DNA of 64,000 nucleotides from Phycisphaerae bacterium RAS1 (GTDB taxonomy: Bacteria; Planctomycetota; Phycisphaerae; UBA1845; Fen-1342): positions 1,364,001 through 1,428,000 of the forward strand of contig SMLU01000001.1 of the NCBI GenBank assembly GCA_007859745.1, in the 5' to 3' direction. The notes beneath the pieces were generated by a model. The model worked only from the letters and a program-made list of their open reading frames with translations. It did not search any database and had not been told where the DNA came from. Shown here in pieces: positions 6,728 through 52,125 of the stretch; position 1 is the first letter of the stretch; each line of letters starts with the position of its first letter. Position numbers and translations under genes: made by a program.

Positions 6728-7959
6728 GCGAATCGCGTCTGACGTCGCTGCACTCGCTGCGCGTGGCCTTCACCGGCCGCCTCGCGGCGCTGTCGCGCGC
6801 CGAGGCGGAGCGGCTCGTGCGGGCGGCGGGAGGCGAGCCGGTGCTGCACGTCTCGCGGCGCGTCTCGGTGCTGGTGGTCGGGATGGGTGGCTGGCCGCTG
6901 GCGCCCGACGGCGGGGTGAGCGAAAAACTGCGACAGGCGCAGCGCAACAACCAGGGCGGACAGCACACGCGGATCATCTCCGAACTCGAATTCCTCGAAC
7001 TGCTGGGCCGCCGGCAGCCGCCGGCGGAAATTCAGAAGACGTACGCGGCCGGCGAGATCGCCCGGCTGGTCGGCGTGTCGCCTGGTGAGCTGCAGCATTG
7101 GGAGCTGCTGGGGCTGGTCCGCGCTCAGGGCGGCAAGTTCGATTTTCAGGACATGGTCTCGCTGCGGACCATTGTCGAGCTGGTGCAGCGCGGCGTGCGG
7201 GCCGACGTCATCAGCCGCAGCCTTTACGAGTTGTCCTCCTTCCTGCCGAACGTTGATCGACCGCTGGCGCAGCTTCGGATCGTCGCTCAGAGCGCTCGCT
7301 CGCTGGTGGCGGAGCTCGGGGAGCGGCTCCTGGCGCCGGATGGGCAGTTTCTGATGAATTTCGAGGCCGCCGAGGCGGCATCGGGCGATGCGGAGGCGGG
7401 CGGGGCCGGGATCGGCGGCGCAGCGCCGACCGCCGCGGTACGCATCAGCGAATCGCCCGGCGCGGCGAGCGGGTGGATTGAGTGCGGGCGGAGGTTTGAG
7501 GAGGCGGAGCGATTTGAAGACGCGCTGGGCGCGTATGAGCAGGCGCTGCGGGCAGGGGCGCCGCGGGCCGCGGCGCACTTCAACCTGGGCAACGTGCTGC
7601 GCGAGTTGGGGCGCGGCGATGAGGCGCGTGCGGCATTCGAGCGGACGGTCGAAGCCGACCCGCAACTGGCCGAAGGCTGGTACAACCTGGCTGACCTGCA
7701 GGAGGAGGCCGGTGACGTGCACGCCGCCATCGCGAGTCTTCAATCCGCGCTGCGCGCCGCGCCTGATTTCGCCGACGCGCACTTCAACCTGGCGCTGTGC
7801 CTCGAACGAAACGGTCACCCGCGGGAGGCCCGCACGCACTGGCGCCGCTACCTGCTGCTGGACCAGGGGAGCGAGTGGTCGCAACTGGCCCGGGCGCGGC
7901 TCACGCGGCAGGTCGAAGGCGGAGAAGTGAGTCACTTTCCGTCAGAGCCGCGCGCGTAA
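6724..7959 (+). CDS. BRCT - MerR-type HTH - TPR fusion protein
   Basis: A 411-residue protein with an uncommon domain order. Residues about 11-96 read as a BRCT domain (L-R-V-A-F-T-G-R-L, then S-V-L-V-V-G-M-G-G-W and a final E-L-E-F-L-E-L-L). Residues about 107-172 read as a MerR-like winged helix (Y-A-A-G-E-I-A-R-L-V-G-V, W-E-L-L-G-L-V, F-D-F-Q-D-M-V). Residues about 255-390 are three or four TPR repeats (A-H-F-N-L-G-N-V-L, W-Y-N-L-A-D-L, A-H-F-N-L-A-L-C-L). The start overlaps the ligase stop by four bases. BRCT could bring the protein to DNA ends or to ligase, HTH to DNA, TPR to a partner; this is inference. The last five codons (S-E-P-R-A) and the stop are made by a dispersed repeat. Confidence 0.8.
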   Translation: MSESRLTSLHSLRVAFTGRLAALSRAEAERLVRAAGGEPVLHVSRRVSVLVVGMGGWPLAPDGGVSEKLRQAQRNNQGGQHTRIISELEFLELLGRRQPPAEIQKTYAAGEIARLVGVSPGELQHWELLGLVRAQGGKFDFQDMVSLRTIVELVQRGVRADVISRSLYELSSFLPNVDRPLAQLRIVAQSARSLVAELGERLLAPDGQFLMNFEAAEAASGDAEAGGAGIGGAAPTAAVRISESPGAASGWIECGRRFEEAERFEDALGAYEQALRAGAPRAAAHFNLGNVLRELGRGDEARAAFERTVEADPQLAEGWYNLADLQEEAGDVHAAIASLQSALRAAPDFADAHFNLALCLERNGHPREARTHWRRYLLLDQGSEWSQLARARLTRQVEGGEVSHFPSEPRA

Positions 7960-8049
7960 GCAAGCGGTCTTCAAAGAACCGCTCCCTTACGGTCGCGGCT
8001 CGGAAATTCGAACCGCACCCACACGCTCCCTGACGGCCGCGGCTCGGAT
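7942..8049. repeat. family B palindromic element (three arms)
   Basis: The family B arm has the consensus TCCGAGCCGCGACCGTRAGG followed by GAGCGGT. Here a left arm (7942-7969) faces a right arm (7977-8004) across about seven bases, and a second right-facing arm lies at 8022-8048. The left arm overlaps the end of the BRCT-MerR-TPR gene and supplies its TAA stop. Confidence 0.85.
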
Positions 8050-8079
8050 CGGGTCGCGCGAGCTCTGTTTAACGTGCGG

Positions 8080-9360
8080 CTACTGGGGACTTGCTTCAAC
8101 GGACGACTGGCCTGTCAGCTCGATGCGGTTCTTGCCGGTGCGCTTGGCGCAGAGCAGCGCCTCGTCGGCCGCCCGCAGGATTCCGGCGCGGTCGCTGCCG
8201 TCCCATGGAAAGCAGGCCAGTCCGCCGCTGATCGTGACCGGGCCCGGGGCGCGCGGGCCGAGGCAGGTGAAAGGATGCGCAGCGATGGTGCGGCGGAAGC
8301 GCTCGGCCAACTCAATCGGGGCGCGCGGATGACGCGAGCCGGGGACGCGGGCCGGCTCCGCGTCGGCAAAAAGGACGGCGAACTCGTCGCCTCCGTAGCG
8401 CGAAACCACGTCGTTGCCGCGGGCGCATCGCGTCAGAAGCTGCCCGATTTCGCGAATGACGGTGTCGCCCGCGTCGTGGCCGAGACGGTCGTTGTAGACC
8501 TTGAATTCGTCGATGTCGAAGAGCAGGACCGTGATCTGCGTACGGTTTTCCCGGGCCGCCTCGACCGCTTCGTCCAGGGCCTTTTCGAAGAAGCGGCGGT
8601 TGCGCAGTCCCGACAGGTCGTCGCGCCAGGCCTCGTTCTGCAGCCGCTCGACCCGCCGCACGAGAGCGATGGCCAGTTCGACCATGCGAGCGTACGTTTC
8701 AAGTCGGGCCGCGACCGTCGGCGAATAGGCGCCCTGCGCACTGCGGCCCAGCTTGATGCAGCCAACCACTTCGCCCTGCCGCCGGACGTTTTCAATCAGC
8801 ACCGGCTCCTCCGGCTCGCCGGCGGCGGCGAAGAGATCGTCGACCTGGAGCGAGGCGAAGGTGGCGCTGAAGGTCTGGCGCAGCAGCGCCGCCAGGCGCT
8901 GCACAACGAATTCCGACCCCTCGGGCAGGTTCTTCAGTAGCTCGCTGAACGCGGCGATGTAGGCTCGCTCGCCGGCCGGGATCGCCGTGTCGCCGGCGTC
9001 GGCGGCGTCCACGCCGTTCAGCGCGAAGGCGGCTTCGAGCTCGCCGCGCGTAATCGGCTCAAGGATGTATTCGTCGGCGCCCTGCTCGATGGCGTTGCGA
9101 GCGCGTGGCTCGTCCACCGGACGGCAGGCGACGACGATGCGGGCCTTGGGGGCGATGGTGCGCATCTGGCGGATGGCGCGGAGCGTGCGGTCAGAGGAGT
9201 TCAGCCCGACGAGAATGCCGTCGACCGGCTCCTGCCCGAGCTGCCACAGGCCGGCCAGCGCGTGCCTGGCCGCGAGCAGGCTGCAGGCGGGCAGGGCGCG
9301 CGAGGCCGCCTCGTGCAGCGAACCGGGACCGATGATCAAGAGGCGTGCGCTGCCGGCCAT
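8080..9360 (-). CDS. diguanylate cyclase with pseudo-receiver and GAF-like domains
   Basis: Makes cyclic di-GMP from two GTP. In this 426-residue protein, residues about 5-112 look like a receiver domain, but the phospho-acceptor Asp position is replaced (I-L-V-G-L-N-S-S-D), so it is probably not phosphorylated. Residues about 130-240 look GAF-like. Residues about 247-415 form a full GGDEF domain with R-Y-G-G-D-E-F and the inhibitory I-site R-G-N-D exactly five residues before it, so an active, feedback-inhibited cyclase is expected. GGGAG precedes the ATG at 9360. It follows a second pseudo-receiver gene by 43 bp on the same strand. Confidence 0.9.
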   Translation of the reverse strand: MAGSARLLIIGPGSLHEAASRALPACSLLAARHALAGLWQLGQEPVDGILVGLNSSDRTLRAIRQMRTIAPKARIVVACRPVDEPRARNAIEQGADEYILEPITRGELEAAFALNGVDAADAGDTAIPAGERAYIAAFSELLKNLPEGSEFVVQRLAALLRQTFSATFASLQVDDLFAAAGEPEEPVLIENVRRQGEVVGCIKLGRSAQGAYSPTVAARLETYARMVELAIALVRRVERLQNEAWRDDLSGLRNRRFFEKALDEAVEAARENRTQITVLLFDIDEFKVYNDRLGHDAGDTVIREIGQLLTRCARGNDVVSRYGGDEFAVLFADAEPARVPGSRHPRAPIELAERFRRTIAAHPFTCLGPRAPGPVTISGGLACFPWDGSDRAGILRAADEALLCAKRTGKNRIELTGQSSVEASPQ

Positions 9361-9403
9361 TCAAGGCGCTCCCAACACTACTATTCTACGCGGTTTTCGG
9401 CGC

Positions 9404-9943
9404 TTAGTTCCCCGGCTCGTCGAGCAGGGCCGATAGTTCTTCGGGTGTCAGGACCGGACGGCCGCTCGCGTCGGCGGAGGTCGCGGAAGGGGCGGCGGCG
9501 GCCGGCGAAGTCTCGCCGGGGACCGCGACCGCGGGCGAGGCGGGGGCGGCCGGCGTCCCCCGAGCGCGGACCGAGGCGACGAAATCCGCCGGCGATTGCG
9601 CGGTCACACGCTCCAGCATCTCGCGCGAGGCGAAGCGGACGACGCGCGGGTCTTGCGGCGGGCCGAGCTGCTCGCAGCGCTGGCCGTACACCACGAGCAC
9701 GACGCCGGGCCAGGTCTCCAGCACGTATTCCGCGACCGCTTTCTCGTCGGCGGGAATCCAGTCAGAACCGATGAGCGCCAAGTCGGCGAGCTGGCTGCTG
9801 TGAAGAATGAGGTGTGCGGTCAGGCCGTAGGCGTCCTCGAACGAAAGCGTCTCAATCTGGTGCGCGGCGAGCCAGGACTGCACCACCTCCTGCAGGGAGG
9901 GATCCCCGTAGCAGACATGGACCGCCCTGCAAACGCCGACCAC
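9404..9943 (-). CDS. receiver-like protein lacking a phospho-acceptor, C-terminal L-T-P-E-E-L tail
   Basis: A 179-residue protein starting at GTG 9943, with GGAGG seven bases upstream. Residues about 8-115 have the alternating strand/helix hydrophobicity of a response-regulator receiver (A-V-H-V-C-Y-G-D-P-S-L, A-D-L-A-L-I-G-S-D, V-V-L-V-V-Y-G), with no obvious acceptor Asp. An Ala/Pro/Ser linker leads to the end L-T-P-E-E-L-S-A-L-L-D-E, which resembles the N-terminal L-S-Q-E-E-I-D-A-L-L peptide of flagellar switch proteins, although here it is at the C-terminus. It lies between dnaB and the diguanylate cyclase and may act with the latter. The function is unknown. Confidence 0.65.
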   Translation of the reverse strand: MVGVCRAVHVCYGDPSLQEVVQSWLAAHQIETLSFEDAYGLTAHLILHSSQLADLALIGSDWIPADEKAVAEYVLETWPGVVLVVYGQRCEQLGPPQDPRVVRFASREMLERVTAQSPADFVASVRARGTPAAPASPAVAVPGETSPAAAAPSATSADASGRPVLTPEELSALLDEPGN

Positions 9944-10037
9944 CGACGACCCTCCGGAAACGGACGCAACCCGAAGCAGAGCATTCTACCGCGCGCGGCG
10001 AGTCGGCAACAGAAGGATTTCGGTCGGATTCTCGCGT

Positions 10038-11504: not shown

Positions 11505-11958
11505 CGGCCACCGCTCCCTCGCGCACGACCCAGACCTTGACGCTCGAGGTCAGCTCGTCGCTGAACTCGAGCTTCACGGCGCGATTGTCCAGCGTCCGGA
11601 TCGGCACGTCCAGCACCACGTGCTCGGGCAGGACGGCGAAGCCCTGCGCGTGCAGCGCGGCGGCGATCTCCTTGGGACCGACCGAGCCGTAGAGCGTGCC
11701 TTCGGGATTGGCGGCGGCCTCGATCGTGACCGTCGCATCCTTCATGCGTTCGACCAGCTCCGAGTATTCCCTCAGCCGGACGGCGCGGGCCGCGGCGGCG
11801 GCCTTGCGGTCCTCCTGAATGGCGGCGATGTTCTCGTCGGTGGGCTCGGTCGCCATGCGTTGCGGAAGCAGGTAGTTTCGCGCGTAGCCGTTGTTTACGT
11901 CGACGATGTCGCCCACGTAGCCGAGCTTGCGCACGTCTTTGACAAGCAAGAGTTTCAT
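11446..11958 (-). CDS. rplI: 50S ribosomal protein bL9
   Basis: A structural protein of the large ribosomal subunit that binds 23S rRNA near the L1 stalk. It is 170 residues. The start M-K-L-L-L-V-K-D-V at 11958 follows GGAGACCGAAAT, so the longer upstream reading is rejected. The N-terminal signature G-D-I-V-D-V-N-N-G-Y-A-R-N-Y-L-L-P is intact, followed by the long helix and the C-terminal domain (N-P-E-G-T-L-Y-G-S-V). A Glu/Gln/Ala-rich tail of about 25 residues extends the usual end, and dnaB starts within it. Confidence 0.96.
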   Translation of the reverse strand: MKLLLVKDVRKLGYVGDIVDVNNGYARNYLLPQRMATEPTDENIAAIQEDRKAAAAARAVRLREYSELVERMKDATVTIEAAANPEGTLYGSVGPKEIAAALHAQGFAVLPEHVVLDVPIRTLDNRAVKLEFSDELTSSVKVWVVREGAVADVQQSEPEQREARQPAAAK

Positions 11959-12103
11959 ATTTCGGTCTCCTACAGATTCGCGGGCGGCAGCGGCGTCTGG
12001 CCGGTGCGCCGGCGGCGCGATGCGCGGTTGCACGAGACGCCGCGGAATCGTTGAGCACCGGCAAGACGCCGATGCTGCACAAACCCGGCGGCGCAGGGGG
12101 CGA

Positions 12104-12364: not shown

Positions 12365-12408
12365 TGCTTAACACTCCTGGCCCGCTCGGGCCGTCAGTTC
12401 ATTGAAGC

Positions 12409-13082: not shown

Positions 13083-13125
13083 CCACAGGGAAACCGGCCC
13101 ACAGGGCGGCGCCACAGGCCGGCCG

Positions 13126-13740: not shown

Positions 13741-13860
13741 ATCAAGCCGTAGGGTGGGCTGTGCCCAGCGTCCGGCCGACTCGGAGGTCGGCCGCTACGG
13801 TCCGGCCGGGGGCGGCCGGGCTACATCGTCGGACGCGGAGGTCCGACGCTACGGCGACGA
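13741..13860. repeat. cluster of family E palindromes at the 3' end of pth
   Basis: Three short palindromes follow each other: GGTGGGCTGTGCCCA near 13754, GGCCGACTCGGAGGTCGGCC near 13775-13794 and CGTCGGACGCGGAGGTCCGACG at 13827-13848. CCGTAG/CTACGG boundaries separate them. The last boundary, CGTAGCG, contains the TAG stop codon of pth on the minus strand. Confidence 0.75.
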
Positions 13861-18017: not shown

Positions 18018-18090
18018 AAACTTGACCAGTACCTGCCGGTGGGTAGTCGAGGGGTGTGCCAGAATCCGGGCAAGCCCGCCGGCTTGTCCC

Positions 18091-18205
18091 TACCCGCCGC
18101 GCCAAGCGGAGGGGTGACGTCCGGGCGCGTTCGCGGCGGCGTGTCGTACATTGACGCCGTTCGCCGTGCGCGCCTGAACCCGCCGCTTGGCGCGGCGGGT
18201 CCGGA
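18091..18205. repeat. family A paired palindrome
   Basis: Family A arms read TCCGAACCCGCCGCGCCAAG followed by CGGCGGGTTGACG. Here a diverged left arm (18091-18122) faces a right arm (18174-18205) with about 50 bp between. The same arrangement occurs at 22797-22896, 40811-40909 and 60072-60191. Confidence 0.8.
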
Positions 18206-19166: not shown

Positions 19167-19228
19167 GTAGCGTCGGACCTCTGTGTCCGACGGCGATTTC
19201 AGCGTCGGACGCGGAGGTCCGACTCTAC
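19167..19228. repeat. family E palindromic element
   Basis: GTAGCGTCGGACCTCTGTG at 19167 and the inverted copy ending GGTCCGACTCTAC at 19228 form paired palindromes in the 99-bp gap between the CPBP gene and lat. The core CGTCGGAC..GTCCGACG matches 13827-13848. Confidence 0.8.
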
Positions 19229-22395: not shown

Positions 22396-22930
22396 CGGAA
22401 CCTGTTATCAGTACAACACTTGCCTTTCGCGATCTTGCAGTACTAGGATTTGTCGATTGCGGGACTGTCCCGCCATCGGCCGGTAGCGACGAGTGAAAGC
22501 CTCCGTCCTCGTGACGCTCGTCGCCGGTCTTTCGCCGAACGGCTCGTCGTGAGCGCGGCGCCGCGGACCGTTGATACGTCCCGTGGCGATCCGTCGGCCC
22601 GCGGCTCACGCGAGCGGCGCGACCGTGGTCGCGCCGCCGCCCGATGAGCGCCGCCGCGGCGACGCGCTGTCTTTGTTCCACGCCGATCCCGGTGCTTTCC
22701 GAGGCGGAAAGAAGGATCGCCGGCAGCGCGGTCGCAGCGCGGCGGCGCTCCACGGGCGGCAGCCTCTGGGCGCATCCCGAGACGATGCGGCGTCTTTCCG
22801 AACCCGCCGCGCCCAGCGGCGGGTTGACGAGCGTTGGCGACCGGCGCCCGACCGGCCGCGGTCGTCACCTCGCCGCTTGGCGCGGCGGATTCCGTCAGAT
22901 CGGCGCCGCGGCCCACGCCGGCCGCAAACG
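22396..22930. other. 535-bp gene-free region between convergent genes
   Basis: The region lies between the 3' ends of the HtrA gene and the RMD1-like gene. It holds a hairpin at 22616-22635 (GGCGCGACC/GGTCGCGCC, two-base loop) and a family A pair at 22797-22896. Long open frames on both strands lack coding character; several merely read through the family A repeat, giving peptides such as S-E-P-A-A-P-S-G-G. No T-rich terminator was found. Confidence 0.65.
22797..22896. repeat. family A paired palindrome
   Basis: The left arm 22797-22830 closely matches the consensus CCGAACCCGCCGCGC plus CGGCGGGTTGACG. The right arm 22864-22896 is its diverged inverse. The spacer is about 33 bp and contains CCGGCGCCCGACCGGCCGCG, similar to the spacer at 40843-40875. 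Confidence 0.82.
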
Positions 22931-25068: not shown

Positions 25069-26658
25069 ATGCGCCCGTGGCGTTGGAACAGCGGCGATGA
25101 CGGCTTGTCCGAGCCGGTTCGCTGCAAGCGCGATCAGTGGTACCTGGTGCGCGTCCAACTGGCCGGGCCGGAGCCGCGCGACCGGCTTCAACTCGCGGCC
25201 CGATTCGAGACGCGGCACGGCCTCGAGACGCTGCGCATCCTGGCGCACCGCGCGCGGGGCGACGCCCCGGCGACCCTGACGGGATGGCTTCAGGCCCCCT
25301 CCGACGCGCGCCAGGTGCGGTTGTGCGTTCGGGACGCGCGCCGCGATCCGATCGAGAGTGTTTCGCTCCACGCCGTCGCCGACCGTGACACCAAATGCCA
25401 TCCGTTGGCCAACGTCCCGCGCTGGAGCTTCTACAGGCCGCCGTTTCCGCTGGAGCGGATCGTCCTGCCGGCGTCGCTCGAGTCGCTCGCGCCGCGCCTG
25501 CCCCACGCGCACGTTGATATTCTGAAATCCCCGCGCTCGACCGCCGAGCTGGCGAAGCGAATTCGCCGTTCGGCGTGTGTGTTGGATGCCGGCTGGCTCG
25601 CCGATCTGGATATTCGCTGGCCGGAGCTTCAGCGGCTGGCGGCCGAATCATGGGTCGTTGTTGATCTGGAAATGGCCGGCGCGCTGCTGCTGGGAGCGGG
25701 ACTGGCCGAGGCCCCGCTGCTCGCGCATCGCTCGCCGCACGGCCTGATGTCGGCCCGCATGCTCTACGCCGACGTGCCGACGCGCGGCGTGGCGCTTCAG
25801 GATGTGCTGCCCTATGGCACGCTCGGTGACGACGGGGCCTTTCACACGCGGGCGCTGCGGGCCACGCGAAGCTGGAAGCAGTATGCCGACGAAAGCGGGT
25901 TTGCGACGCTGCTGGCCAGCGAGACGCCCTGGCCCAGGTACAGCGGGCACGTGTTATGCGCCGCGCTGGGATCGGCCGGCGGCGAGCTCATCATCAGCGA
26001 TCTGCCCTGGATCGCCGCCGGGCGGTTCGGGCCGTGCATCGCGCCGCGGCTGAGCGATCATCTGCTGCGCATGCTCCTGGGCGGGCCGATCGAAGACGAG
26101 ATTCAATACTGGAATCGCTGGGACGAGAGCGGGATCGTGGTTCGAGACATATCGGAAGCGCCGAGCCGCTATCCGCCGCTGGAGACCGCCCGCTGGGCTG
26201 GAAACGGGCTGGCCCGGCTGGGCCTGTGGACTCGGCCGCGGCCGGGAACGGCGCCGCGCGAGATGCTGCTGATCGCGACCGGACGAATCGATCACGCGGG
26301 CATTCACGACGGCCTGCCGCCCGAGGCGATGACCATCTTCATGAAGCAGCTCGCGCGCGAGATTCGCGAGCAGACGCCCTGGGCGACGGCGCATCTCTCC
26401 GATCGGATCGTCGCCTGGCAGTTCGACTCGGCTGCCGGTCTGAAGTACGCGGCGCACTACCGATCCGCGGCTGACATGCCGGGCGGTGTGCCGACGCGCG
26501 TGCTGCGGCTGCGCATGGCGGGCGGCGACGACACTCCGGCGGCCAATGCGACGGTGATTGGAGTGTCTGAGGGGGTCCACGGCGATGGATCGATCGAGTT
26601 TCAGCGCGAGTTGACGCGCGTGATTCGCCCGTGGATTCAGTCCGAGCCGCGCCCGTGA
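25069..26658 (+). CDS. protein of unknown function, 529 residues
   Basis: A long open frame with strong coding character (balanced, low-repeat composition and consistent GC-rich third positions), 62 bp after the EF-P-like gene. There is no signal peptide or membrane helix. The N-terminal third reads like a beta-rich region, and the middle contains hydrophobic strands such as S-W-V-V-V-D-L-E-M-A-G-A-L-L-L-G. I do not recognise a family. The first ATG (25069) lacks a good ribosome binding site, so the true start may differ by some codons. The C-terminus S-E-P-R-P and the stop are encoded by a family B repeat. Confidence 0.7.
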   Translation: MRPWRWNSGDDGLSEPVRCKRDQWYLVRVQLAGPEPRDRLQLAARFETRHGLETLRILAHRARGDAPATLTGWLQAPSDARQVRLCVRDARRDPIESVSLHAVADRDTKCHPLANVPRWSFYRPPFPLERIVLPASLESLAPRLPHAHVDILKSPRSTAELAKRIRRSACVLDAGWLADLDIRWPELQRLAAESWVVVDLEMAGALLLGAGLAEAPLLAHRSPHGLMSARMLYADVPTRGVALQDVLPYGTLGDDGAFHTRALRATRSWKQYADESGFATLLASETPWPRYSGHVLCAALGSAGGELIISDLPWIAAGRFGPCIAPRLSDHLLRMLLGGPIEDEIQYWNRWDESGIVVRDISEAPSRYPPLETARWAGNGLARLGLWTRPRPGTAPREMLLIATGRIDHAGIHDGLPPEAMTIFMKQLAREIREQTPWATAHLSDRIVAWQFDSAAGLKYAAHYRSAADMPGGVPTRVLRLRMAGGDDTPAANATVIGVSEGVHGDGSIEFQRELTRVIRPWIQSEPRP

Positions 26659-26668
26659 GGAAGCGGTC
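26641..26668. repeat. family B single arm covering a stop codon
   Basis: A left arm TCCGAGCCGCGCCCGTGAGG plus AAGCGGTC. The TGA at 26656-26658 is the stop codon of the 529-residue gene. No inverted partner was seen. About 45 bp downstream a family D arm (GTCAGAACGCGAAGCGC, 26712-26738) follows. Confidence 0.8.
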
Positions 26669-37034: not shown

Positions 37035-39296
37035 ATGCATAGCTTCCGCGCGCGCTGCCCGCGCCTTGTCGGCGCGACTCTTACAGGCGTTCTGACTCTC
37101 GCCACCTTGCTGGCTGCCCGCGCCGGCCTGGCGCAGACCGTTCCCACCGACCCACGCGAAACCACCGCCGCATCCGCCGAAGAGGCGGCCCTGCTGGCCG
37201 GCGCCGCCAGCGACGATCCGCGCATCATCGGCGCCGACGCCGTCACGGGCGGCGGCGTCCTCCTGGGTAGTTGCGTCAACTGCCAGCCGTGCGACCGGAT
37301 CGAGGACGAACCGCTGTGCGCCAATGGCTACGTGGACAACTTCAACGGCGGCTGCAACTCAACGCCGAACGTGTTTGGCAACATCCTGTGCGGTCAGACG
37401 GTGTGCGGGCAGTACGGCACGTATGTCAGCGGAGGCGGGTCGAATTTCCGCGACACGGACTGGTACCGCTTTTCAATTCCCGAGCGATCGGCCGTGACGT
37501 TCAGCGCCGTCGGCGAGGCCACCACACGCATCTTCATCCTCACCAACGCCTGCCCGACCGCCACGATCGCAACCGCGACGGCGCCGCCGTGCGGCACGGC
37601 CACGATCAACGTCACGCTCGAGCCGGGGACGTACATCGCCTTTGTGGGCACGGACGTCTTCACCGGCGTGCCGTGCGGCAGCCTTTACCGCGCCACGCTG
37701 ATCTGCGACTCCATCTGCCGCGTGGAAAACGAGCCGGTGTGCGCCAACGGTTACGTCGACAACTTCAACGGCGGCTGCAACTCGACGCCGAACGTCTTCG
37801 GCGGCGTGCAGTGCGGCGACACGATCTGCGGCGAGTATGGCACGTTTCTCAGCGCCGGCGGGGCCAATTTCCGCGATACAGACTGGTATCGCTTCGGCCT
37901 CTCGCGTCGTACGACGGTCACGTGGACCGTCGTCGGAAACGCCACGACCCGCGCGTTCATACTCCAGGGCACCTGCCCGGCCGTTTCGCTCGGCACGGCG
38001 GTCGCTGCGGCCGGCATGCCCGCGACCGTGACACTGACGCTCGAGCCGGGCCTGTACAACGCCTTCGCCGGAACGGACGTGTTTACCGGCGTTCCGTGCG
38101 GAACCACGTACCAGGCGACGCTGACCTGCGAGGAGATTTGCCGCGTCGAGGGCGAGCCGGATTGCGCTAACGGGTACGTCGACAATTTCAACGGCGGATG
38201 CAACTCGACGCCGCCCGTGTTCGGCACGGTGCAGTGCGGCGACCGGGTGTGCGGAAAGTACGGGACGTTCGTGAGCGCCGGCGGCTCGAACTTCCGAGAC
38301 ACCGATTGGTACACGTTTTCCCTGACGCAGCGCACGGCGATCACCTGGCGCGCCATGGGCGGCGCCACGACGCGCGTCTTCGTCCTGAACTCCAACTGCC
38401 CGGCCGCCAGCCTGGGCACGGCGGTCGCCCCGGCCGGTGAGACGGCGAGCGTCTCGCTCACGCTCGAACCCGGTACTTATCGTGGGTTCGTCGGAACCGA
38501 CGTGTTTACCGGCGTTCCCTGTGGAACCACGTATGAAGCCGAGCTGGTCTGTGATGAAATCTGCCGCGTCGAGAATGAGCCTGAGTGCGCCAACGGCTAC
38601 GTGGACAACTTCAACGGCGGGTGCAACTCGACGCCGCCGGTCTTTGGGGCCGTCGAGTGCGGACAGACCGTGTGCGGCGAGTACGGCACGTTCCTGAGCG
38701 CGGGCGGGTCCAATTTTCGCGATACGGATTGGTACACGTTCGTGCTGGGCGGCGCCGGCGCGGTCACCTGGAGCGCGACGGGAACCGCCACGACGCGCGT
38801 GTTCATCCTGAATACAAACTGCCCGGCGACAAGCCTGGGCACCGCGGCGGCCCCGGCGGGAATGCCGGCGACTGTGACCTTGAACCTGACGCCAGGCACG
38901 TATCGAGCCTTTGTCGGGACGGACGTGTTCACCGGCGTGGCCTGCGGCTCGACCTATACCGCGACGCTGACCTGCCCGCCGGATTGCGGCGCGCCGATCT
39001 GCGGCGACTCGAACTGCGACGGCGCGTTCAACGTGCTGGACATTAACTTCTTCGTTCAGGCCATTCTGGGCGAAGCCAACTGGGACGCGCTGCCCGGGAC
39101 GTACTGTGACTACTGCCGGGCCAATGACATCGACGGCGACGGTGAAATCACCGTGCTGGACATCAACTTCTTCGTCAACGGCCTGCTCGCCGGATACTGC
39201 CCGCCGTCGGAAGGTTGCCGTGACCAGACCGCGGCACAGCCGGTCATCGGCGGCGAGCCGGACGACGGCGCAAGCTGGAGCGCGTCAGAAGAGTGA
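37035..39296 (+). CDS. secreted four-repeat protein with dockerin-like C-terminus
   Basis: An exported protein of 753 residues. The signal peptide covers residues 1-33 (A-G-L-A-Q end). Four consecutive units of exactly 141 residues (423 bp) follow; their starts are marked by C-A-N-G-Y-V-D-N-F-N-G-G-C-N at codons near 37318, 37741, 38164 and 38587. Each unit also has F-R-D-T-D-W-Y and V-G-T-D-V-F-T-G-V. The Cys pattern suggests disulfide-linked domains. The end holds two calcium loops (N-C-D-G-A-F-N-V-L-D-I-N, D-I-D-G-D-G-E-I-T-V-L-D-I-N) of the dockerin-like type. The ATG is supported by CGGAGACCCCC. The function is unknown; adhesion or surface coating is possible. Confidence 0.88.
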   Translation: MHSFRARCPRLVGATLTGVLTLATLLAARAGLAQTVPTDPRETTAASAEEAALLAGAASDDPRIIGADAVTGGGVLLGSCVNCQPCDRIEDEPLCANGYVDNFNGGCNSTPNVFGNILCGQTVCGQYGTYVSGGGSNFRDTDWYRFSIPERSAVTFSAVGEATTRIFILTNACPTATIATATAPPCGTATINVTLEPGTYIAFVGTDVFTGVPCGSLYRATLICDSICRVENEPVCANGYVDNFNGGCNSTPNVFGGVQCGDTICGEYGTFLSAGGANFRDTDWYRFGLSRRTTVTWTVVGNATTRAFILQGTCPAVSLGTAVAAAGMPATVTLTLEPGLYNAFAGTDVFTGVPCGTTYQATLTCEEICRVEGEPDCANGYVDNFNGGCNSTPPVFGTVQCGDRVCGKYGTFVSAGGSNFRDTDWYTFSLTQRTAITWRAMGGATTRVFVLNSNCPAASLGTAVAPAGETASVSLTLEPGTYRGFVGTDVFTGVPCGTTYEAELVCDEICRVENEPECANGYVDNFNGGCNSTPPVFGAVECGQTVCGEYGTFLSAGGSNFRDTDWYTFVLGGAGAVTWSATGTATTRVFILNTNCPATSLGTAAAPAGMPATVTLNLTPGTYRAFVGTDVFTGVACGSTYTATLTCPPDCGAPICGDSNCDGAFNVLDINFFVQAILGEANWDALPGTYCDYCRANDIDGDGEITVLDINFFVNGLLAGYCPPSEGCRDQTAAQPVIGGEPDDGASWSASEE

Positions 39297-39319
39297 GCTC
39301 GCTGCACATGCGGCTGATT

Positions 39320-39436
39320 CGGAGCCGCGACGTTTTGCCGAGCCGCGACGTTTTTCCGAGCCGCGACGTTTTTCCGAGCCGCGACCGTGAGGGAGCGGAG
39401 GCTTGAAACCCGCTTGCTTACGCGCGCGGCTCGGAT
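39320..39436. repeat. family B element with tandem 19-bp units
   Basis: Three copies of a CCGAGCCGCGACGTTTTT-like unit (from 39320, 39339 and 39358) lead into a full left arm (39376-39400), then an inverted arm ending GCGCGGCTCGGA near 39433. It fills the gap between the convergent four-repeat protein gene and mgtC. Confidence 0.8.
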
Positions 39437-40702: not shown

Positions 40703-41012
40703 GCAAGGCATGATACCCGGCAGGCGGCCGGCGGTTGCGGGTGGCTCTGGAAAAACGTCGCCGTCAGCCATTTGAATGAGCGCATCCGGTTTCAAGTGGC
40801 GATCCATCCAAACCGACCGTGCCAAGGGGCGGGGTGACGTCTGCGGCCGGTGGGGCGCCGATGGCGCTTAGCGATCGTCACCCCGCCGCTTGGCGCGGCG
40901 GGTTCGGAAAGACGCCGCCCGCCGCAGCCTCTATCGGGATGCGCCCCATTAGAATCGCCCGCCTGATCCATACTGTCGCGATTGAAATCGGTCGCGTATT
41001 CTCCGCGGCGAC
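40703..41012. other. divergent intergenic region with family A pair
   Basis: The family A element at 40811-40909 fills a third of this gap between the lipoprotein gene and the ABC permease gene. Promoters for both should lie here but were not resolved. Confidence 0.5.
40811..40909. repeat. family A paired palindrome
   Basis: The left arm (40811-40842) is diverged. The right arm (40876-40909) matches the consensus CACCCCGCCGCTTGGCGCGG plus CGGGTTCGGA. The 33-bp spacer carries GCCGGTGGGGCGCCGATGGC, resembling the spacer at 22831-22863. Confidence 0.82.
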
Positions 41013-43015: not shown

Positions 43016-43087
43016 TCCGAGCCGCGACCGCAAGGGAGCGGAAGACGCTCGGACACCAGGAACCGCTCCCTGACGGTCGCGGCTCGG
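43016..43087. repeat. family B paired palindrome
   Basis: The left arm 43016-43042 (TCCGAGCCGCGACCGCAAGG plus GAGCGGA) faces the right arm 43061-43087 across 18 bp, in the 152-bp gap after the ABC ATPase gene. Confidence 0.85.
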
Positions 43088-44013: not shown

Positions 44014-44487
44014 CAGCCCGTTGGAAACGAGTAGCGTCGGCCCTTCGCGGCGTTCGCGGCGCGAGCGCCCCGCGAAAACCACCGTCGGCCACAGAGGGCC
44101 GACGCTACCGTGCGTATCAAGCGCCGGCTCGATCCTGCGGTGACCCGCGATCATCGCCGGTGAGAGTGCAAGTCCTGGTGGCGAGGGGCTCGACTCGTGC
44201 TTTCAGCGTCCCTGCCGATCGCACTCGTCTGAGGCGAGCTCCAACTCGCGGCGGGGCTCCCTCGCTCCACCAGGCTCGTCGCCGTCCGTGGCGTTTCGGG
44301 TCGCCGCGCCAGACTGCCGCGGCTCTTCTTTCTATCGGAAGCGGTTGAGCGACGAACTGCGGGAAATGTCGCGAATAGCGGCCGGCGGGCGCAATGGCTG
44401 CGCCGATGGTGCGCGAAAACCCCGCGAAAACCGCCGTCGGCCACAGCGGGCCGACGCTACCGATGACTTGTTCAATGGGCTGCTAGG
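44011..44487. repeat. gap between convergent genes with family E elements and shared TAGCAGCCC ends
   Basis: The 469-bp gap contains family E palindromes at 44031-44109 and 44421-44462, both with GCGAAAACC then CGTCGGCCACAG and GGGCCGACGCTACC. Its two outer ends are inverted copies of TAGCAGCCCRTTG (44011-44023, and 44473-44485 on the minus strand). In each the first TAG is the stop codon of the flanking gene. No gene was found between. Confidence 0.8.
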
Positions 44488-47836: not shown

Positions 47837-48866
47837 GCCGCTTCACCCGGGCAATCAGATCTTTCAACTGGTCCATCATCTCGGGCAGCCGTTTCAGGCT
47901 CACGTGTTGCCGCGCGAAAACCATGTGTTCAACGGCCGGATGGCCGCGGAATACGCGCCCTGCCCCCGCCAGGTTGCCGAACACGCCCGACTGCGCCGCG
48001 ACGATGACGCCGTCATCCACGCGGATGTGATCGACCAGCCCGACCTGGCCGGACAGAACCACGCTCCGGCCGAGCGACGACGAGCCGGCGACCCCGCACT
48101 GGGCGGCGATCACCGTGTCTTCACCGATCGTGACATTATGAGCCACCTGCACGAGGTTATCAATCTTGACGCCGCGGGCGATGAGCGTCACGCCGCTCTT
48201 GGCGCGGTCCACGCACGTGTTGGCGCCGATTTCGACGTCGTCCTCGATGACGACGATTCCGACCTGCGGGATCTTGTGCTGGCGGCCGCCGCGCGGCAGA
48301 TAGCCAAATCCGTCGGCGCCGATCGTGCTGTTGGCGTGGATGATGACGCGATCGCCGAGCCGGCAGCGCTCGCGAACCACGACGTTCGGCCAGAGGACGC
48401 AATCGCGGCCGACCTGCACCTCGGACCCGAGATAGACGCCGGGGTGTATCTGCGTGCCCGCGCCGATGGTCACGCCCGGACCGATCCAGGCGTTCGCGCC
48501 GATCGCCGCCCCCTCGACTCTCGCCCCGGAGGTCACGATGGCCGTCGGGTGTATGCCCAGCGCCACCTGGTCCACCGGCGGCGAGAGCCAGATGAGCACG
48601 CTGCACAGCGCCAAGTCGGGGTCGGAAACGCGAATCGTCGTGAGCCCGGCGGGCGCTTCCCTCAGCGCCGCCGGAACGAGAACCACACCCGCGCGCGTGG
48701 CGGCGAGCTGCGGCACGTACTTCTCATCACCCAGCCACGCGACGCAGTCGTCCGCGGCCTCGGCGAGCGTCGCCACGCGGCGGACGACGCGGGCGCCGTC
48801 GCCGGAGAGTGTGCCGTCGAGCCGCCGGGCGAGTTCGGCGGCCGTCATTTGAGCGGGGGCGGACAT
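47802..48866 (-). CDS. lpxD: UDP-3-O-acylglucosamine N-acyltransferase LpxD
   Basis: The third lipid A step: it adds the N-linked hydroxyacyl chain. It is 354 residues. The uridine-binding N-terminal domain covers about 1-100, left-handed beta-helix coils run from about 105 to 310 (A-H-N-V-T-I-G-E with the catalytic His), and a C-terminal helix is present ([11 protein letters not shown]). Its 3' end overlaps lpxC-fabZ by 35 bp. It follows the OmpH/Skp-like gene on the opposite side, as in the common skp-lpxD order reading from upstream. Confidence 0.95.
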
Positions 48867-48893
48867 GGTTCACTTGTCCATGAATCGGGCGGC

Positions 48894-48914
48894 GGGTGGC
48901 ATGTCATGCCACCC
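48894..48914. repeat. palindrome between ompH-like gene and lpxD
   Basis: GGGTGGCATG-T-CATGCCACCC is a perfect ten-bp inverted repeat with a one-base centre, located between the ompH-like stop and the lpxD start. Such a compact site could be a dispersed palindrome or a dimeric-repressor operator; no copy elsewhere in the window was noticed. Confidence 0.6.
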
Positions 48915-48920
48915 GTCGAG

Positions 48921-49562
48921 CTACGGAATGTACAACCGCTCCTTGCTCGGCGCGGCACGGTGCGCCGCGTTCAGCTTGTCCAGCACCAGTTGGCTGATGT
49001 CGATCGACGGATTGACGTAGACCACCTTGCGGCTGCGGATCTGCTGGCGCACGGCGTCGGGATCGGGATTGACCGGCTCGAACTCCTCGCGATAGAGCAC
49101 GAGGTCGTAGCCGCTCTGCACCGCGACATCCTCGGTCGCTTTCAGGATTTCCTTGTAGATGTTGGCCGACCACTTGGCGATCTCGGCCGTCATCGCGGCT
49201 TCCTTGATCTCGACCCAGTTTTTGTTCTGAATCTGCGTCTGAATCAGCTCGTTCATCTTGGCCGGGTAGGTCGGGTCGTTGGGCGCCAGCGCGTCCAGCG
49301 TGGCTTTCATCGCGTCGACCTTCTCGCGCCGCGACTGGGCTTCAAGCTGCAACTCAGCTTTTTTCTTGTTGATCTCGTCGGTCAGGTCCTTTTGCAGCAG
49401 GTACTCGTTGAACACCTTCACGACATCAATCACGGCGATCTTGCCCGTGATTGGCCGCGGCGTCGGGCCGGTCTGGGCCCGAACGACTTCTGCGGTCAGA
49501 AATCCCTGCACGACCAGCGCCGCGCCGATGAGACACGCCCTTGTCCATACGCGAGGTTGCAT
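48921..49562 (-). CDS. OmpH/Skp-like periplasmic chaperone
   Basis: A 213-residue protein. The signal peptide ends near residue 30 (V-R-A-Q-T), followed by I-A-V-I-D-V-V-K-V-F-N-E-Y, the family start. A long charged helical hairpin covers about 55-150 and the end is V-Y-V-N-P-S-I-D-I-S-Q-L-V-L. Skp holds unfolded outer-membrane proteins in the periplasm. ATG 49562 follows GGAGACATC; the frame stays open further upstream but lacks sense there. It heads the ompH-lpxD-lpxC/fabZ-lpxA run. Confidence 0.88.
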   Translation of the reverse strand: MQPRVWTRACLIGAALVVQGFLTAEVVRAQTGPTPRPITGKIAVIDVVKVFNEYLLQKDLTDEINKKKAELQLEAQSRREKVDAMKATLDALAPNDPTYPAKMNELIQTQIQNKNWVEIKEAAMTAEIAKWSANIYKEILKATEDVAVQSGYDLVLYREEFEPVNPDPDAVRQQIRSRKVVYVNPSIDISQLVLDKLNAAHRAAPSKERLYIP

Positions 49563-49729
49563 GATGTCTCCAGTGAGCGGACCGCCTGCGCAGCAGCCGG
49601 AAAGCCGACTGCCGTACGAAACCACTTTGCGGCCGGGAGCGGCATTCTCGCCGCCGGAATCGATTCTGTCAGCAGCGGGCGCATGCGGTTTCAGGTTGCG
49701 ACCCCGTCTGGACCCGCCGCGGCTTTGCT

Positions 49730-49764
49730 GTCCGAACCGGCCGCGCCAAGCGGCGGGTCGACCT
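49730..49764. repeat. family A single arm
   Basis: TCCGAACCGGCCGCGCCAAG plus CGGCGGGTCGACC, close to the family A consensus. The expected inverted partner is absent; the end of the CDP-alcohol phosphatidyltransferase gene lies where it would be. Confidence 0.75.
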
Positions 49765-49789
49765 CCCCCCGCTGTGTGCCGGCGATCGC

Positions 49790-50677
49790 TTACCAGCGTC
49801 TGCGAACGAGGTCGGTCGCCGGGGAGACGTCGGCCAGCGCCGGCCAGAGCAGCGGAGCGAAGATGATGTAGGCAATGTTCAAGCCCGTTACGACATCGTA
49901 CGGCACTGACCCGCGCGGATAGCGCCAAAGCAGCAACCGGCCGACGCCGGGAAACGGCCCGGCCGGCGGGAGCGGACGGCCGGCGTCCTGTGCCGTCACG
50001 AAAACGAACGAGAAGACCATCCGCCGGACGACCGTCAGGCCGCCGACGATGGCGAGTTGCCACATCACCGCCGGCAGGTGCCCGAACGAGGCGCCGATCA
50101 GCACCGCCGCGAAGCGCTCGCCGCGCAGCCAATAGCCGACCGAGCAGTCGGGGATGACGGTTTCGGCGCGCGCTTTGATGTAACTGATGAGCAGGGCGTT
50201 GCACATCGCGATGACCGCCAGCCCGGCGAGCGTGACATGGCCGCGCAGCGCGAAGTGCGCCGCGCAGGCGAGGAAGATCGCCATGTCGCTGAAGCGGTCG
50301 ATGCAGGAGTCGAGGATGCCGCCGAAACGCGTTTTCAGGTCGCCGACGCGGGCGACGGCGCCGTCGAGCATGTCCAAAGCGCCCGCCGCGAACAGGAGAA
50401 TGGCCGCGTACGCCGGCCACAGGCTCAGCGGCCCGCGGCCGTTGCTCCAATAGGGCGCCTGGTGCGACGCGCCGAAGTACATGCAGCCGGCGGCGGCGCA
50501 GGTGATGAGGAAGCCGGCGATCGTGACGCGGTTGGGCGTGGCGCCGCGCGCGATCAGGAATCGGGCCACCTGGTCGCGCGCGTCGCAGATGGCTTGGCCG
50601 ATGGCCTTGCTGAAGCCCGGACGCTGGCCGCTTTCGCGGAAGCGGCGGAAATCCTTGCTCTTGGGCGCGTCAGGCAT
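49790..50677 (-). CDS. CDP-alcohol phosphatidyltransferase family protein
   Basis: A membrane enzyme that joins a CDP-activated lipid to an alcohol. It is 295 residues with about seven hydrophobic helices. The family motif is complete: D102, D105-G106, A109-R110, G119, D123 and D127 (D-G-A-V-A-R then G-G-I-L-D-S-C-I-D). The class (PgsA, PssA or inositol-phosphate synthase) cannot be decided from motifs alone. ATG 50677 is preferred to an ATG six codons upstream. It is divergent from nothing and co-directional with the lipid A run, 228 bp away. Confidence 0.88.
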   Translation of the reverse strand: MPDAPKSKDFRRFRESGQRPGFSKAIGQAICDARDQVARFLIARGATPNRVTIAGFLITCAAAGCMYFGASHQAPYWSNGRGPLSLWPAYAAILLFAAGALDMLDGAVARVGDLKTRFGGILDSCIDRFSDMAIFLACAAHFALRGHVTLAGLAVIAMCNALLISYIKARAETVIPDCSVGYWLRGERFAAVLIGASFGHLPAVMWQLAIVGGLTVVRRMVFSFVFVTAQDAGRPLPPAGPFPGVGRLLLWRYPRGSVPYDVVTGLNIAYIIFAPLLWPALADVSPATDLVRRRW

Positions 50678-50689
50678 GTGGAAATTGTG

Positions 50690-50719
50690 AACCACGGAGA
50701 CACTGAGGCACGGAGAAAA
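50690..50719. repeat. family F arm (diverged)
   Basis: AACCACGGAGACACTGAGGC plus ACGGAGAA, a diverged form of the AACCACAGAGGCACAGAGG arm, directly upstream of the CDP-alcohol phosphatidyltransferase start. Confidence 0.65.
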
Positions 50720-50768
50720 CGCGATACCGGGATAGCATGCCGACCTCCCGCCGTCGCCCGTTCGGCGA

Positions 50769-51227
50769 CTACGGCTTATGGCGCAATACCAGCGACGCGC
50801 CGGCGGCGGCCAGCAGAATGCCGGCGAAGAACTGCCAGTCCGGCGCCTTCTCCGGGCGGTGGATGATCATCGCGATCAGCGTGCTCACGATCGGAGCGCC
50901 GGCGAAGACCAGCGGCGGGACGGTCAGCGGCGAGCCGCCGCTGCGCAGCGCCAGCACGACGCCCAGAGCGCCGACCGCGCCGAGCACGCCTGCCAGCGTC
51001 GAGACGCCGACCGCACGGCCGTTGCCGAGCTGCGAGGGCTCGCGCGCCAGCATGAGAAACACCAGCGGCGCCAGCACGGCTACCAGGAAATAGGCCACGC
51101 CGACGAACAGAAAGGCCCACATCGCCTTGTTCTTGCCGTTGAAGGCGAGCTGGCCGGCGTGGATCGTCGGCACGTAGGCCCCCCAGCACAGCACGGTCGT
51201 GGCGACAAAGAGCGGCCAATATTTCAT
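50769..51227 (-). CDS. small EamA-like membrane protein
   Basis: A 152-residue protein with about five hydrophobic helices. The N-terminus W-P-L-F-V-A-T-T-V-L-C-W-G-A-Y-V and the end W-Q-F-F-A-G-I-L-L-A-A-A-G-A-S-L-V-L resemble one half of an EamA/DMT-superfamily transporter, which usually has ten helices. It may work as a dimer, as small multidrug-resistance-type proteins do. AAAGGACAGGC precedes the ATG at 51227. The substrate is unknown. Confidence 0.75.
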   Translation of the reverse strand: MKYWPLFVATTVLCWGAYVPTIHAGQLAFNGKNKAMWAFLFVGVAYFLVAVLAPLVFLMLAREPSQLGNGRAVGVSTLAGVLGAVGALGVVLALRSGGSPLTVPPLVFAGAPIVSTLIAMIIHRPEKAPDWQFFAGILLAAAGASLVLRHKP

Positions 51228-51348
51228 GCCTGTCCTTTCATGAATCGCGCCGCGGCGGACGCCCGTCGCCGGCCGCGAGCCGGGATGATACCCGCGCGCG
51301 TCATCCGGCGAGCCGTGCATTCAGCCACACCGCGGCATAGCATCAGAT

Positions 51349-52011
51349 ATGCCCGTTGAATCCGGCAATTCTTCGCAACGTCGCGAAGACATGATTGTCA
51401 GGCAGCTTGTCGCCCGCGGCGTGAACTGTGCCCGCGTCATCGACGCGATACGCGACACGCCGCGCGAGCTATTTGTGGCCGCGGACCAGCAGGACGCCGC
51501 CTACGACGACGCGGCGCTGCCGATCGACTGCGGCCAGACGATTTCGCAGCCGTACATTGTCGCATACATGACCGAGCTGCTCGAACCAGCCGCGGACGCA
51601 CGCGCGCTTGAGATCGGCACCGGGTCGGGCTATCAGGCCGCCGTCCTGGCCCGGCTCGTCCGGCAGGTGTATTCGATCGAGCGGCACGAGCGGCTGATGG
51701 CGGCCGCAGCTCGGCGATTGGCGCAGCTTGAGCTGCAGAACGTAGCGCTGCGCTGCGGCGACGGCTCGCTCGGCTGGCCCGAGGAGGCCCCGTTCGACGC
51801 CATTCTGGTGACGGCCGGCGCGCCGGAGATTCCCGTCGCGCTCGAATCTCAGTTGTGCATCGGTGGCCGGCTGGTGGCGCCCGTCGGTCCGCTCGATGAC
51901 CAGATGCTGGTGCGCGTCCGCCGGACGGCGCGCGGGTTCGTGCGCGAGCGGCTGCTTCGCTGCCGGTTTGTGCGGTTGATCGGGGTGCAGGGCTGGTCGC
52001 CGGACACGTGA
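51349..52011 (+). CDS. pcm: protein-L-isoaspartate O-methyltransferase
   Basis: Repairs age-damaged proteins by methylating L-isoaspartyl residues with SAM. It is 220 residues. Family motifs are R-E-D-M-I-V-R-Q-L near 12-20, G-Q-T-I-S-Q-P-Y near 62-69 and the SAM motif E-I-G-T-G-S-G-Y-Q-A near 87-96. The C-terminal R-F-V-R-L-I-G-V-Q-G-W closes the domain. No surE or other partner is adjacent. Confidence 0.95.
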   Translation: MPVESGNSSQRREDMIVRQLVARGVNCARVIDAIRDTPRELFVAADQQDAAYDDAALPIDCGQTISQPYIVAYMTELLEPAADARALEIGTGSGYQAAVLARLVRQVYSIERHERLMAAAARRLAQLELQNVALRCGDGSLGWPEEAPFDAILVTAGAPEIPVALESQLCIGGRLVAPVGPLDDQMLVRVRRTARGFVRERLLRCRFVRLIGVQGWSPDT

Positions 52012-52040
52012 ACCGCCACTCAGTCCGAGCTGAGACGCAG

Positions 52041-52125
52041 TCCGAGCCGCGACCGTGAGGGAGCGGTGCAGTCGCGAAGAACGCTCATCTTGCCAAGGGG
52101 AGCTTCCTCACGAGCGCGGCTCTGA
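52041..52125. repeat. family B paired palindrome overlapping the tlyA-like stop
   Basis: The left arm 52041-52067 is an exact consensus copy (TCCGAGCCGCGACCGTGAGG plus GAGCGGT). The right arm (about 52101-52125) overlaps the 3' end of the minus-strand tlyA-like gene and supplies its S-E-P-R-S codons and TGA stop. Confidence 0.85.

Follow-up and report, generated by a model that had tools for sequence, protein, structure and literature searches.

REPINs (REP doublets forming hairpins, where REP stands for repetitive extragenic palindromic sequence) are dispersed in trans by a RAYT (REP-associated tyrosine transposase). REPs occur commonly in bacteria, and to our knowledge, it is an open question why REP transposases persist as single copies without amplifying. 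Inteins are in-frame mobile DNA enzymes which are located inside essential proteins at recurrent sites. For the class 3 TnpA(Y1) transposases, the survey of this family describes hairpins with a CnGA foot, about 600 of them in Solibacter usitatus, and its account states that "unexpectedly long proteins" were dropped (PMC6006769). GTAG REPs were described to supply TAG stops to flanking open reading frames (PMC3733652). Here, we analyzed a stretch of 64,000 nucleotides from Phycisphaerae bacterium RAS1 (GCA_007859745.1, contig SMLU01000001.1, positions 1,364,001 to 1,428,000), in the following called the window, in which three genes end in S-E-P-R-x-stop inside copies of one REP. Very probably, this REP is a hairpin of the REP/REPIN type which is moved in trans by a class 3 TnpA(Y1), RAYT-like transposase, and selection acting on a by-product of its loop writes the shared C-terminus. 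The three host genes and the REP copies that end them are located as follows.

6724..7959, plus strand: host gene 1, MerR_1 and TPR repeats, 411 amino acids; ends S-E-P-R-A-TAA, stop 7957-7959
7942..7967, plus strand: REP type B, 1 mismatch to type B; frame-0 TCA GAG CCG CGC GCG TAA ends the TPR/MerR gene
25069..26658, plus strand: host gene 2, 529 amino acids, orthologues within the same family of bacteria; ends S-E-P-R-P-TGA
26641..26666, plus strand: REP A/B hybrid; frame-0 TCC GAG CCG CGC CCG TGA ends the 529-residue gene
52108..52878, minus strand: host gene 3, FtsJ-like/TlyA-like, 256 amino acids; ends S-E-P-R-S-TGA, stop 52108-52110; start uncertain, 52692 in the gene calls
52100..52125, minus strand: diverged REP; frame-0 TCA GAG CCG CGC TCG TGA ends the TlyA/FtsJ-like gene

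The initial annotation of the window gave these C-termini and stops correctly. Its view that the proteins are unrelated is supported, as they share no Pfam family at E ≤ 0.001 (TPR and MerR_1; nothing; FtsJ). The BRCT domain that it had placed in the TPR/MerR gene has no match in Pfam. The C-termini do lie inside one repeat, read in the same frame, but the 20-mer which had been quoted as the end of this repeat fits closely only at 26641 (1 mismatch), with 3 mismatches at 52125 on the minus strand and more than 3 at 7942, where the copy is of type B. In the window, the 20-mer is found at 10 places with up to 3 mismatches, compared to 0.06 expected.

The sample of the own genome consisted of the window and 60 further stretches, together 1.238 Mb or 22.5% of the 5.50-Mb genome, and it includes 103 of the 245 exact copies of the 19-base REP core. 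Since these stretches were mostly picked around listed exact copies, the copy density is biased upwards. Genes were called with our own simple caller instead of the annotation (926 genes, 865 of them complete). A REP copy was accepted if it differed from type A (TCCGAGCCGCGACCGTGAGGGAGCGG) or type B (TCCGAGCCGCGCGCGTAAGCAAGCGG) at no more than 6 positions. The core occurs exactly 119 and 126 times (245) in the genome and its reversed control not at all; at the threshold of 6 mismatches, the sample holds 218 copies, against 1 for the reversed control. Although 83% of the sequence was called coding, 187 of the 218 copies are wholly intergenic, and the writing of C-termini, initially taken for a habit of the element, is not what most copies do. 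The remaining copies lie within genes in sense (15) or antisense (4) direction, across a 3' end in sense (10) or across 5' ends (2).

The REP unit consists of a 5' foot TCCGAG (sometimes TCAGAG), a stem CCGC..GCGG and a G-T-N-A tetraloop. The foot has the CnGA form (CCGA in 187 and CAGA in 9 of the 218 copies). Neither a GTAG or GGAG tetranucleotide, as in GTAG REPs of class 2 RAYTs, nor the CGTC of the CGTC-tagged REPs stands at the 5' end of this REP, which reads T-CCGA-G; membership in either group was rejected, since the foot sequence differs. The inner stem pair covaries (C-G in 138 and G-C in 68 copies) and separates two sub-types, C-G being type A and G-C type B. As RNA, the sense hairpin folds with -13.1 kcal/mol, compared to -7.6 and -7.0 for shuffles (z -2.4 for the GTGA form, -2.9 for the GTAA form). 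One of the three frames that start at the foot, TCC GAG CCG CGA CCG T(G/A)A, translates as S-E-P-R-P-stop, a coincidence of the loop being GTGA or GTAA. All remaining frames of the consensus REP, two in sense and those in antisense, are open, so that REPs, and even a whole transposase gene with its REPs, can sit in frame inside proteins.

Copies outside the own genome were collected from at least 117 loci of named genomes (Planctomycetota, Acidobacteriota, Chloroflexi and a few others by depositor label). Among the 117 loci listed, 275 copies were found, 254 of them intergenic. The exact core is present in 18 of 41 genomes (own and 40 relatives), with 245 copies in the own genome, 210 in G044, 89 in G041, 61 in G055, 48 in G064, 31 in G035, 16 in G038, 10 in G065 and 1-3 in ten others (G and L being our codes for genomes and loci). 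The loops in the own genome are mainly GTGA (116), GTAA (61) and GTCA (12), with GTNA in 189 of 218 copies. A GNRA loop, which would fit 193 of the 218 when the own genome is taken alone, was given up, since the listed copies elsewhere include 43 GTCA and 11 GTTA loops besides 105 GTAA and 97 GTGA, and GTNA describes the loop better; at least 54 of the 275 have no stop. The G, T and A of the loop are nearly fixed, whereas the third base is free: 16 loop changes keep G-N-R-A and lose the stop, and 1 keeps the stop and loses the first G. Because of this free base, the stop is a by-product of the loop rather than a conserved feature in itself, and a conserved stop signal was rejected.

SEPRP is the commonest C-terminal pentapeptide among the 865 complete genes (6 genes, next 4). 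Together with SEPRA (3), SEPRS (1) and SEPQP (1), 11 genes show a SEP[RQ]x end, including two (SEPRP and SEPRA) in copies too diverged for the threshold; one TSEP end likewise lies in a diverged copy. A gene stop exactly at position +15, the loop triplet TGA or TAA, was found in 9 of the 218 copies. Random placement gave a mean of 0.09 (maximum 2) and a jitter of ± 60 bp a mean of 0.52 (maximum 6), each in 1000 runs. One further gene reads a loop-mutated copy (TCA) in the same frame to a stop at +30. These 10 copies, into which a gene in sense runs near its 3' end, are all read in the stop frame, which has a probability of (1/3)^10 = 1.7e-5 if the frames are equal. No other nearest sense stop lies at 0 to +80 of the copies in the own genome; a copy that shares just one base with a gene end (stop at -2, TSEP*) belongs to the 3'-end class given above but not to these ten. 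Chance coincidence of the C-termini was rejected on the basis of the copy counts against controls, the frequency of SEPRP and the placement tests. In the 117 loci listed, 4 genes have their stop at +15, all of them with SEPRP*, which is also there the commonest C-terminus (4 of 488 genes). Of the 6 sense 3'-end cases there, 4 are in the stop frame and two in other frames, so that the bias holds but is not absolute: the earlier proposal of an element tolerated only in this frame is right as a strong bias (10 of 10 in the own genome) and wrong as a rule.

Among the 218 copies, 152 form 76 outward-facing inverted pairs, an arrangement that is characteristic of REPINs. The spacers measure 9-12 bp in 53 of the 76 pairs and 11 bp in 39, and type A is paired with type B in 54. 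A pair with an 11-bp spacer has the commonest pair length, 63 bp or 21 codons, a multiple of three. With this outward orientation, a neighbouring gene runs into a stop-bearing end whichever side of the pair it adjoins, and for the same reason none of the 218 copies overlaps a gene 3' end in antisense. The following further copies are located in the window.

7979..8004, minus strand: REP type A, inverted partner of 7942-7967, gap 11
8023..8048, minus strand: further REP copy from the 20-mer search
39373..39398, plus strand: REP type A, loop GTGA; truncated tandem copies precede it from 39318
39410..39435, minus strand: REP type B, inverted partner of 39373-39398 (family D12)
43016..43041, plus strand: REP, loop GCAA, no stop codon
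43063..43088, minus strand: REP type A, loop GTCA, no stop; inverted partner of 43016-43041
52041..52066, plus strand: REP type A, exact over the 20-mer, about 30 bp past the stop of the gene 51391-52011
63215..63240, plus strand: REP, loop GTAA
63272..63297, minus strand: REP, loop GTAA, inverted partner of 63215-63240

The truncated copies at 39318-39385 are tandem 18-bp partial REPs (TTCCGAGCCGCGACGTTT) before a full one; similar 19-bp runs are located near C1:18425-18500.

The ends of the host genes were compared with orthologues. For the 529-residue gene, all 16 orthologues with a complete C-terminus end at the equivalents of residues 524-533 (SEPRP is 525-529); a 17th, which ran off its contig, was excluded. 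For TlyA, 21 of 23 orthologues end at the equivalents of 251-259 of 256 (SEPRS is 252-256) and two at 266 and 275. The four close orthologues of the TPR gene all end 6-15 residues before its own end. The SEPRx tail is absent from all complete-C-terminus orthologues of the three genes that were examined. The initial annotation had named, as evidence against an element that replaces the original stop, orthologues without the repeat that end at the same residue; for two of the three genes, such orthologues do stop at almost the same position. As these ends fall within about 10 residues, the replacement was confined to a variable tail and the stop, and the tail looks incidental. Either the REP took the place of a variable terminal stretch, or the gene came to run into it once its old stop had been lost; conserved sequence is untouched. 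What stands of the earlier claim is a mobile-looking element which lies near gene 3' ends and replaces the stop; that it writes C-termini as a habit is not supported.

A candidate for the cognate transposase was identified in the own genome. It contains 20 Y1_Tnp loci, and only the one in the gene of valyl-tRNA synthetase (ValS) has these REPs (flanks of up to 1.5 kb on each side).

G000:C4:135980-140425 (L228:7980-12425), plus strand: ValS with class 3 transposase and REP arrays in frame, 1481 codons, uninterrupted

Both halves of this gene are valyl-tRNA synthetase (NCBIfam valine--tRNA ligase, 945 bits). A class I synthetase search of the 99%-complete genome found one ValS and one IleS; the other two genes matched are LeuS and MetG. 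The insert reads PSRDRKGAV, followed by the transposase and EPLPHGRGSE. Its HuH motif lies in RTNHVHVVV (NHVH in 5 of 7 aligned rows, SHVH or THVH in the others) and its Y----Q motif in YVDEHQ, where Y and Q are shared by all 7 rows. Among the matches listed for 30 relatives, there is no transposase match at this ValS site; in G041, the site is empty by the coordinates among the matches listed, with 81 bp between the pieces matching query 637 and 897. Close relatives of the transposase in other genomes have a plus-strand REP just upstream and a minus-strand REP just downstream in 7 loci (L233, L234, L236, L238, L239, L243, L248), three of which are AlaS fusions. REPs lie on both sides in other arrangements in four loci (L235, L237, L240, L242) and on one side only in L241, at a contig end. 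No class 3 transposase was found among the 117 loci listed. The stand-alone class 3 transposase of L242 has its C-terminus, TEPRP*, in the REP downstream of it. The own genome contains another class 3 transposase, which is stand-alone, has 171 amino acids and is located near a contig end without these REPs nearby (G000:C4:538-993, L459).

In the mechanism that we propose, REP insertions would accumulate directly past gene ends, the transposase acting presumably by single-strand cleavage. Insertions into the last codons would survive mostly in the stop frame, where they would cost few residues. The other frames would append a long random tail and would hence be selected against; such selection may be what lies behind the frame bias. 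In some genes, the old stop has possibly been lost later. Several points weigh against this explanation. No transposition was observed. The gene ends depend on our simple caller, and the sample of stretches is for the most part centred on exact copies. The two genes elsewhere that are read in other frames (L056 and L145) stop at +35 and +46. The number of copies with any same-strand stop (9) shows no excess over the jitter mean of 13.2, so that the phase and not the overlap is unusual; of the link with stop codons beyond shuffled placement that the initial annotation had foreseen, the phase is confirmed (9 at +15 against 0.09 and 0.52), the overlap as such is not. In addition, 11 copies start up to 15 bp after a stop, and by a rough estimate about 4 stop-frame cases would be predicted at an even rate in the last 15 bp of genes, where 9-12 are seen; an additional preference, or an old stop that was lost only afterwards, may account for this difference. 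The hairpin is no stabler than shuffles when folded as DNA (z about -0.9), nor is the antisense RNA. Such a REP is absent within 700 bp of the class 3 relatives at L244, L249 and L250, and the greater length of the TPR gene fits later loss of its old stop.

The last point belongs to an alternative which can coexist with selection on the frame for some genes: the element landed past a gene whose original stop mutated later, and the REP served as a back-up terminator in one of three frames. Many copies begin shortly past stops, the TPR gene is 6-15 residues longer than its 4 close orthologues, and the gene which reads through the loop-mutated copy to +30 would fit as well. However, SEPRx begins at or before the usual last residues of the 529-residue and TlyA orthologues, which leaves little or no extension, and extensions in other frames were not found in the sample of the own genome. 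We regard stop loss as possible but rather unlikely.

Alternatively, the transposase might prefer a sequence or structure of stop codons or terminators in a fixed phase, and SEPRx-stop would then mark its choice of target. The single phase of all 10 sense 3'-end copies, the closeness of copies to 3' ends in sense and the base -1 upstream of the REP, which is A or T in 180 of the 218 copies and C in 3, would agree with this. The copies, however, lie at many distances from stops without phase: the nearest sense stop within -60 to +80, present for 78 copies, is distributed over the frames as 28/26/24. The flank base preference is weak, two of the six cases elsewhere are in other frames, and insertions into open frames occur inside genes, where the stop-free frame PSRDREGAV accounts for 10 of the 15 sense copies (one gene holding four of these), the other open frame for 3, and frame 0 with a changed stop for 2. 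Targeted insertion is thus improbable.

The in-frame position of the transposase in ValS is not an isolated case. In the own genome, three more enzymes contain a Y1 transposase in frame, and a PurH insert was found in further genomes.

L230:6474-10733, minus strand: IleS with in-frame Y1 transposase, own genome
L229:6412-10026, minus strand: GcvP with in-frame Y1 transposase, own genome
L385:4551-7433, minus strand: PurH with in-frame Y1 transposase, own genome
L385-L397, L290, L294, L295, L298, L301, L304, L305: PurH insert loci

The guests in the own IleS, GcvP and PurH are surrounded by other translated repeats (GGTGVSPV, VARPPSVGS/RPGAAGL and HRLETGAT). The NCBIfam model "REP-associated tyrosine transposase" matches the GcvP guest with 85.4 bits (cut-off 80), and matches those of IleS and PurH (66) and ValS (24.8) below the cut-off. 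Pfam scans covered part of the transposase inserts, and some of the matches are below the curated cut-off (own PurH 16.6 and own IleS 20.4 bits; one PurH insert E 0.04). In relatives, fusions were found with AlaS (G041, with two transposases in one protein, G007 and G065), IleS (G038, G046, G040), GcvP (G049), LeuS and ValS (G055), ValS at another site (G341) and, with a class 3 transposase, the BREX-2 methyltransferase PglX (G434, a single contig, L455:3798-8639, minus strand). PurH fusions occur in 19 genomes besides the own one. In total, there are 34 fused proteins (PurH 20, IleS 4, ValS 3, AlaS 3, GcvP 2, LeuS 1, PglX 1) in 26-27 genomes, as G007, reached by another route, may duplicate one. 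The ValS guest and the AlaS guests are flanked by REPs of the present family, counted with up to 7 mismatches, and the guests of G434 and G341 by a variant form of them. The own LeuS (L461:1456-4392, minus strand; 978 amino acids, 973 bits to leuS_bact) contains an in-frame REP pair at G000:C1:158952-159029.

In a search of the order, 102 of 114 genomes had PurH; only the interrupted-looking loci were examined, 22 in number, with an insert in 20. L398 and L399 show no PurH insert by alignment. Four loci (L291, L292, L308, L457, with frames of 658, 424, 465 and 676 amino acids) are not clean fusions and were not counted, and L294 and L307 are one stretch. All 20 PurH inserts are at one site (reference 283-292), with at least 3 transposase types by eye, which may indicate a recurrent site or successive replacement. 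With the class 3 profile, 36 of 294 sampled genomes of the phylum are positive, and three of the matches listed lie in frames longer than 1200 residues; the fused state is therefore a minority for class 3. By simple Nei-Gojobori estimates, the ratio of non-synonymous to synonymous substitution rates (dN/dS) in PurH, compared for two species of one genus, is 0.16 for the guest and 0.26 for the host part, and 0.24 for both in a more distant pair. The guests of IleS and GcvP have 0.13 and 0.16 (host parts 0.33 and 0.27), with guest dS of about 2 and hence unreliable. Judged by these low values, the guests evolve as constrained proteins and not as junk; the constraint may be on transposase activity or on harmless folding.

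We consider it likely that REP transposases of this order are in-frame guest domains in the essential enzymes ValS, AlaS, IleS, LeuS, GcvP, PurH and PglX, intein-like and without protein splicing. No intein or Hint domain was detected in 17 fused proteins scanned whole with Pfam (no such family at E ≤ 0.01 in 14 and at E ≤ 0.001 in 3), and no report of in-frame transposases inside these enzymes was found in searches of an open-access library. The transposase and its REPs would be translated as part of the host enzyme, at recurrent sites, the product being presumably one protein with a working enzyme, and the open REP frames would be read as hydrophilic linkers (PSRDREGAV ... EPLPHGRGSE). Because of its position in frame, the guest would be expressed and not easily lost by frameshift or stop. 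The SEPR-stop ends would be edge cases of the same coding-compatible element. It could be objected that the fusions are artefacts of assembly or annotation, or decayed inserts that stay open by chance, and one PurH insert (L301) has indeed lost a His of the catalytic motif. This is very improbable in view of 34 open fused proteins in 26-27 genomes, including the single-contig genomes G060, G064 and G434, of enzyme halves that both match their own families in the fused proteins scanned, of HxH kept in 19 of 20 PurH inserts and of the constrained look of the guest in PurH (dN/dS 0.16, host part 0.26, in two species of one genus).

Least probable of all is that the SEPRx tail itself is selected, as a tag for degradation or localisation or for translational control by the stop in the loop: the same kind of tail stands on 11 of 865 genes, and REPs within 15 nt of stops were reported to affect translation in E. 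coli (PMC12306157), but the third loop base is free, at least 54 of the 275 listed copies elsewhere have no stop, the three window proteins are unrelated and their examined orthologues lack the tail.

If the guest position is as we describe it, a transposase in frame within an essential enzyme would be a direct answer to the question of its persistence, and one open to testing, namely that it hitch-hikes on an indispensable gene. REPs are, at the least, compatible with translation. A C-terminus or a long insertion in a housekeeping protein of planctomycetes can consist of mobile DNA, a point to be considered in annotation and in phylogenies of aminoacyl-tRNA synthetases and PurH.

The window contains further repeats. 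A second REP-like inverted family (D4/D7, for example TGTCCGAACCCGCCGCGCCAAGCGGCGGGTTGACG at 60072) is located at 18085-18129, 22795-22839, 40805-40849, 49729-49773 and 60072-60116, with inverted copies nearby. A third, hairpin-like family (D9, CGTCGGACGCGGAGGTCCGACGCTAC) is found at 13824-13852, 19200-19228, 44080-44108 and 44432-44460. Four coding tandem repeats of 423 bp lie at 37295-38974 within a gene of 729 amino acids. Paired DVLDIN-type repeats, which we take to be dockerin-like, occur at 39006-39172, the end of the same gene, and at 57050-57210. INPF is the commonest 4-mer near the C-termini of the called genes.

Compared to inteins, the guests share the in-frame position of a mobile DNA enzyme in an essential protein and the recurrent sites; they differ in the translated REPs that border the inserts of ValS and AlaS, and splicing is not indicated. 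REPINs are likewise inverted REP pairs (PMC3116915), with another REP sequence and another class of RAYT. GTAG REPs have another foot, their stop comes from the foot and not from the loop, and no common five-residue C-terminus is given in the part of that report which deals with them (PMC3733652). The in-frame palindromic elements of Rickettsia and the ORFs of miniature inverted-repeat transposable elements (MITEs) are also short mobile repeats translated inside conserved proteins (PMC2229807), whereas here a complete transposase domain together with its repeats lies inside a host enzyme. The closest system is class 3 TnpA(Y1), with which our locus shares NHVH and Y----Q, the occurrence in Planctomycetes and Acidobacteria, the CnGA foot (here CCGA, in some copies CAGA), the high copy number and a gene flanked by repeats (PMC6006769). 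In contrast to it, the copy of the own genome lies with its REPs in frame inside ValS. Relative to the class 3 part of the survey (PMC6006769), the architecture of inverted A/B pairs, the stop in the loop and the shared C-termini are described here.

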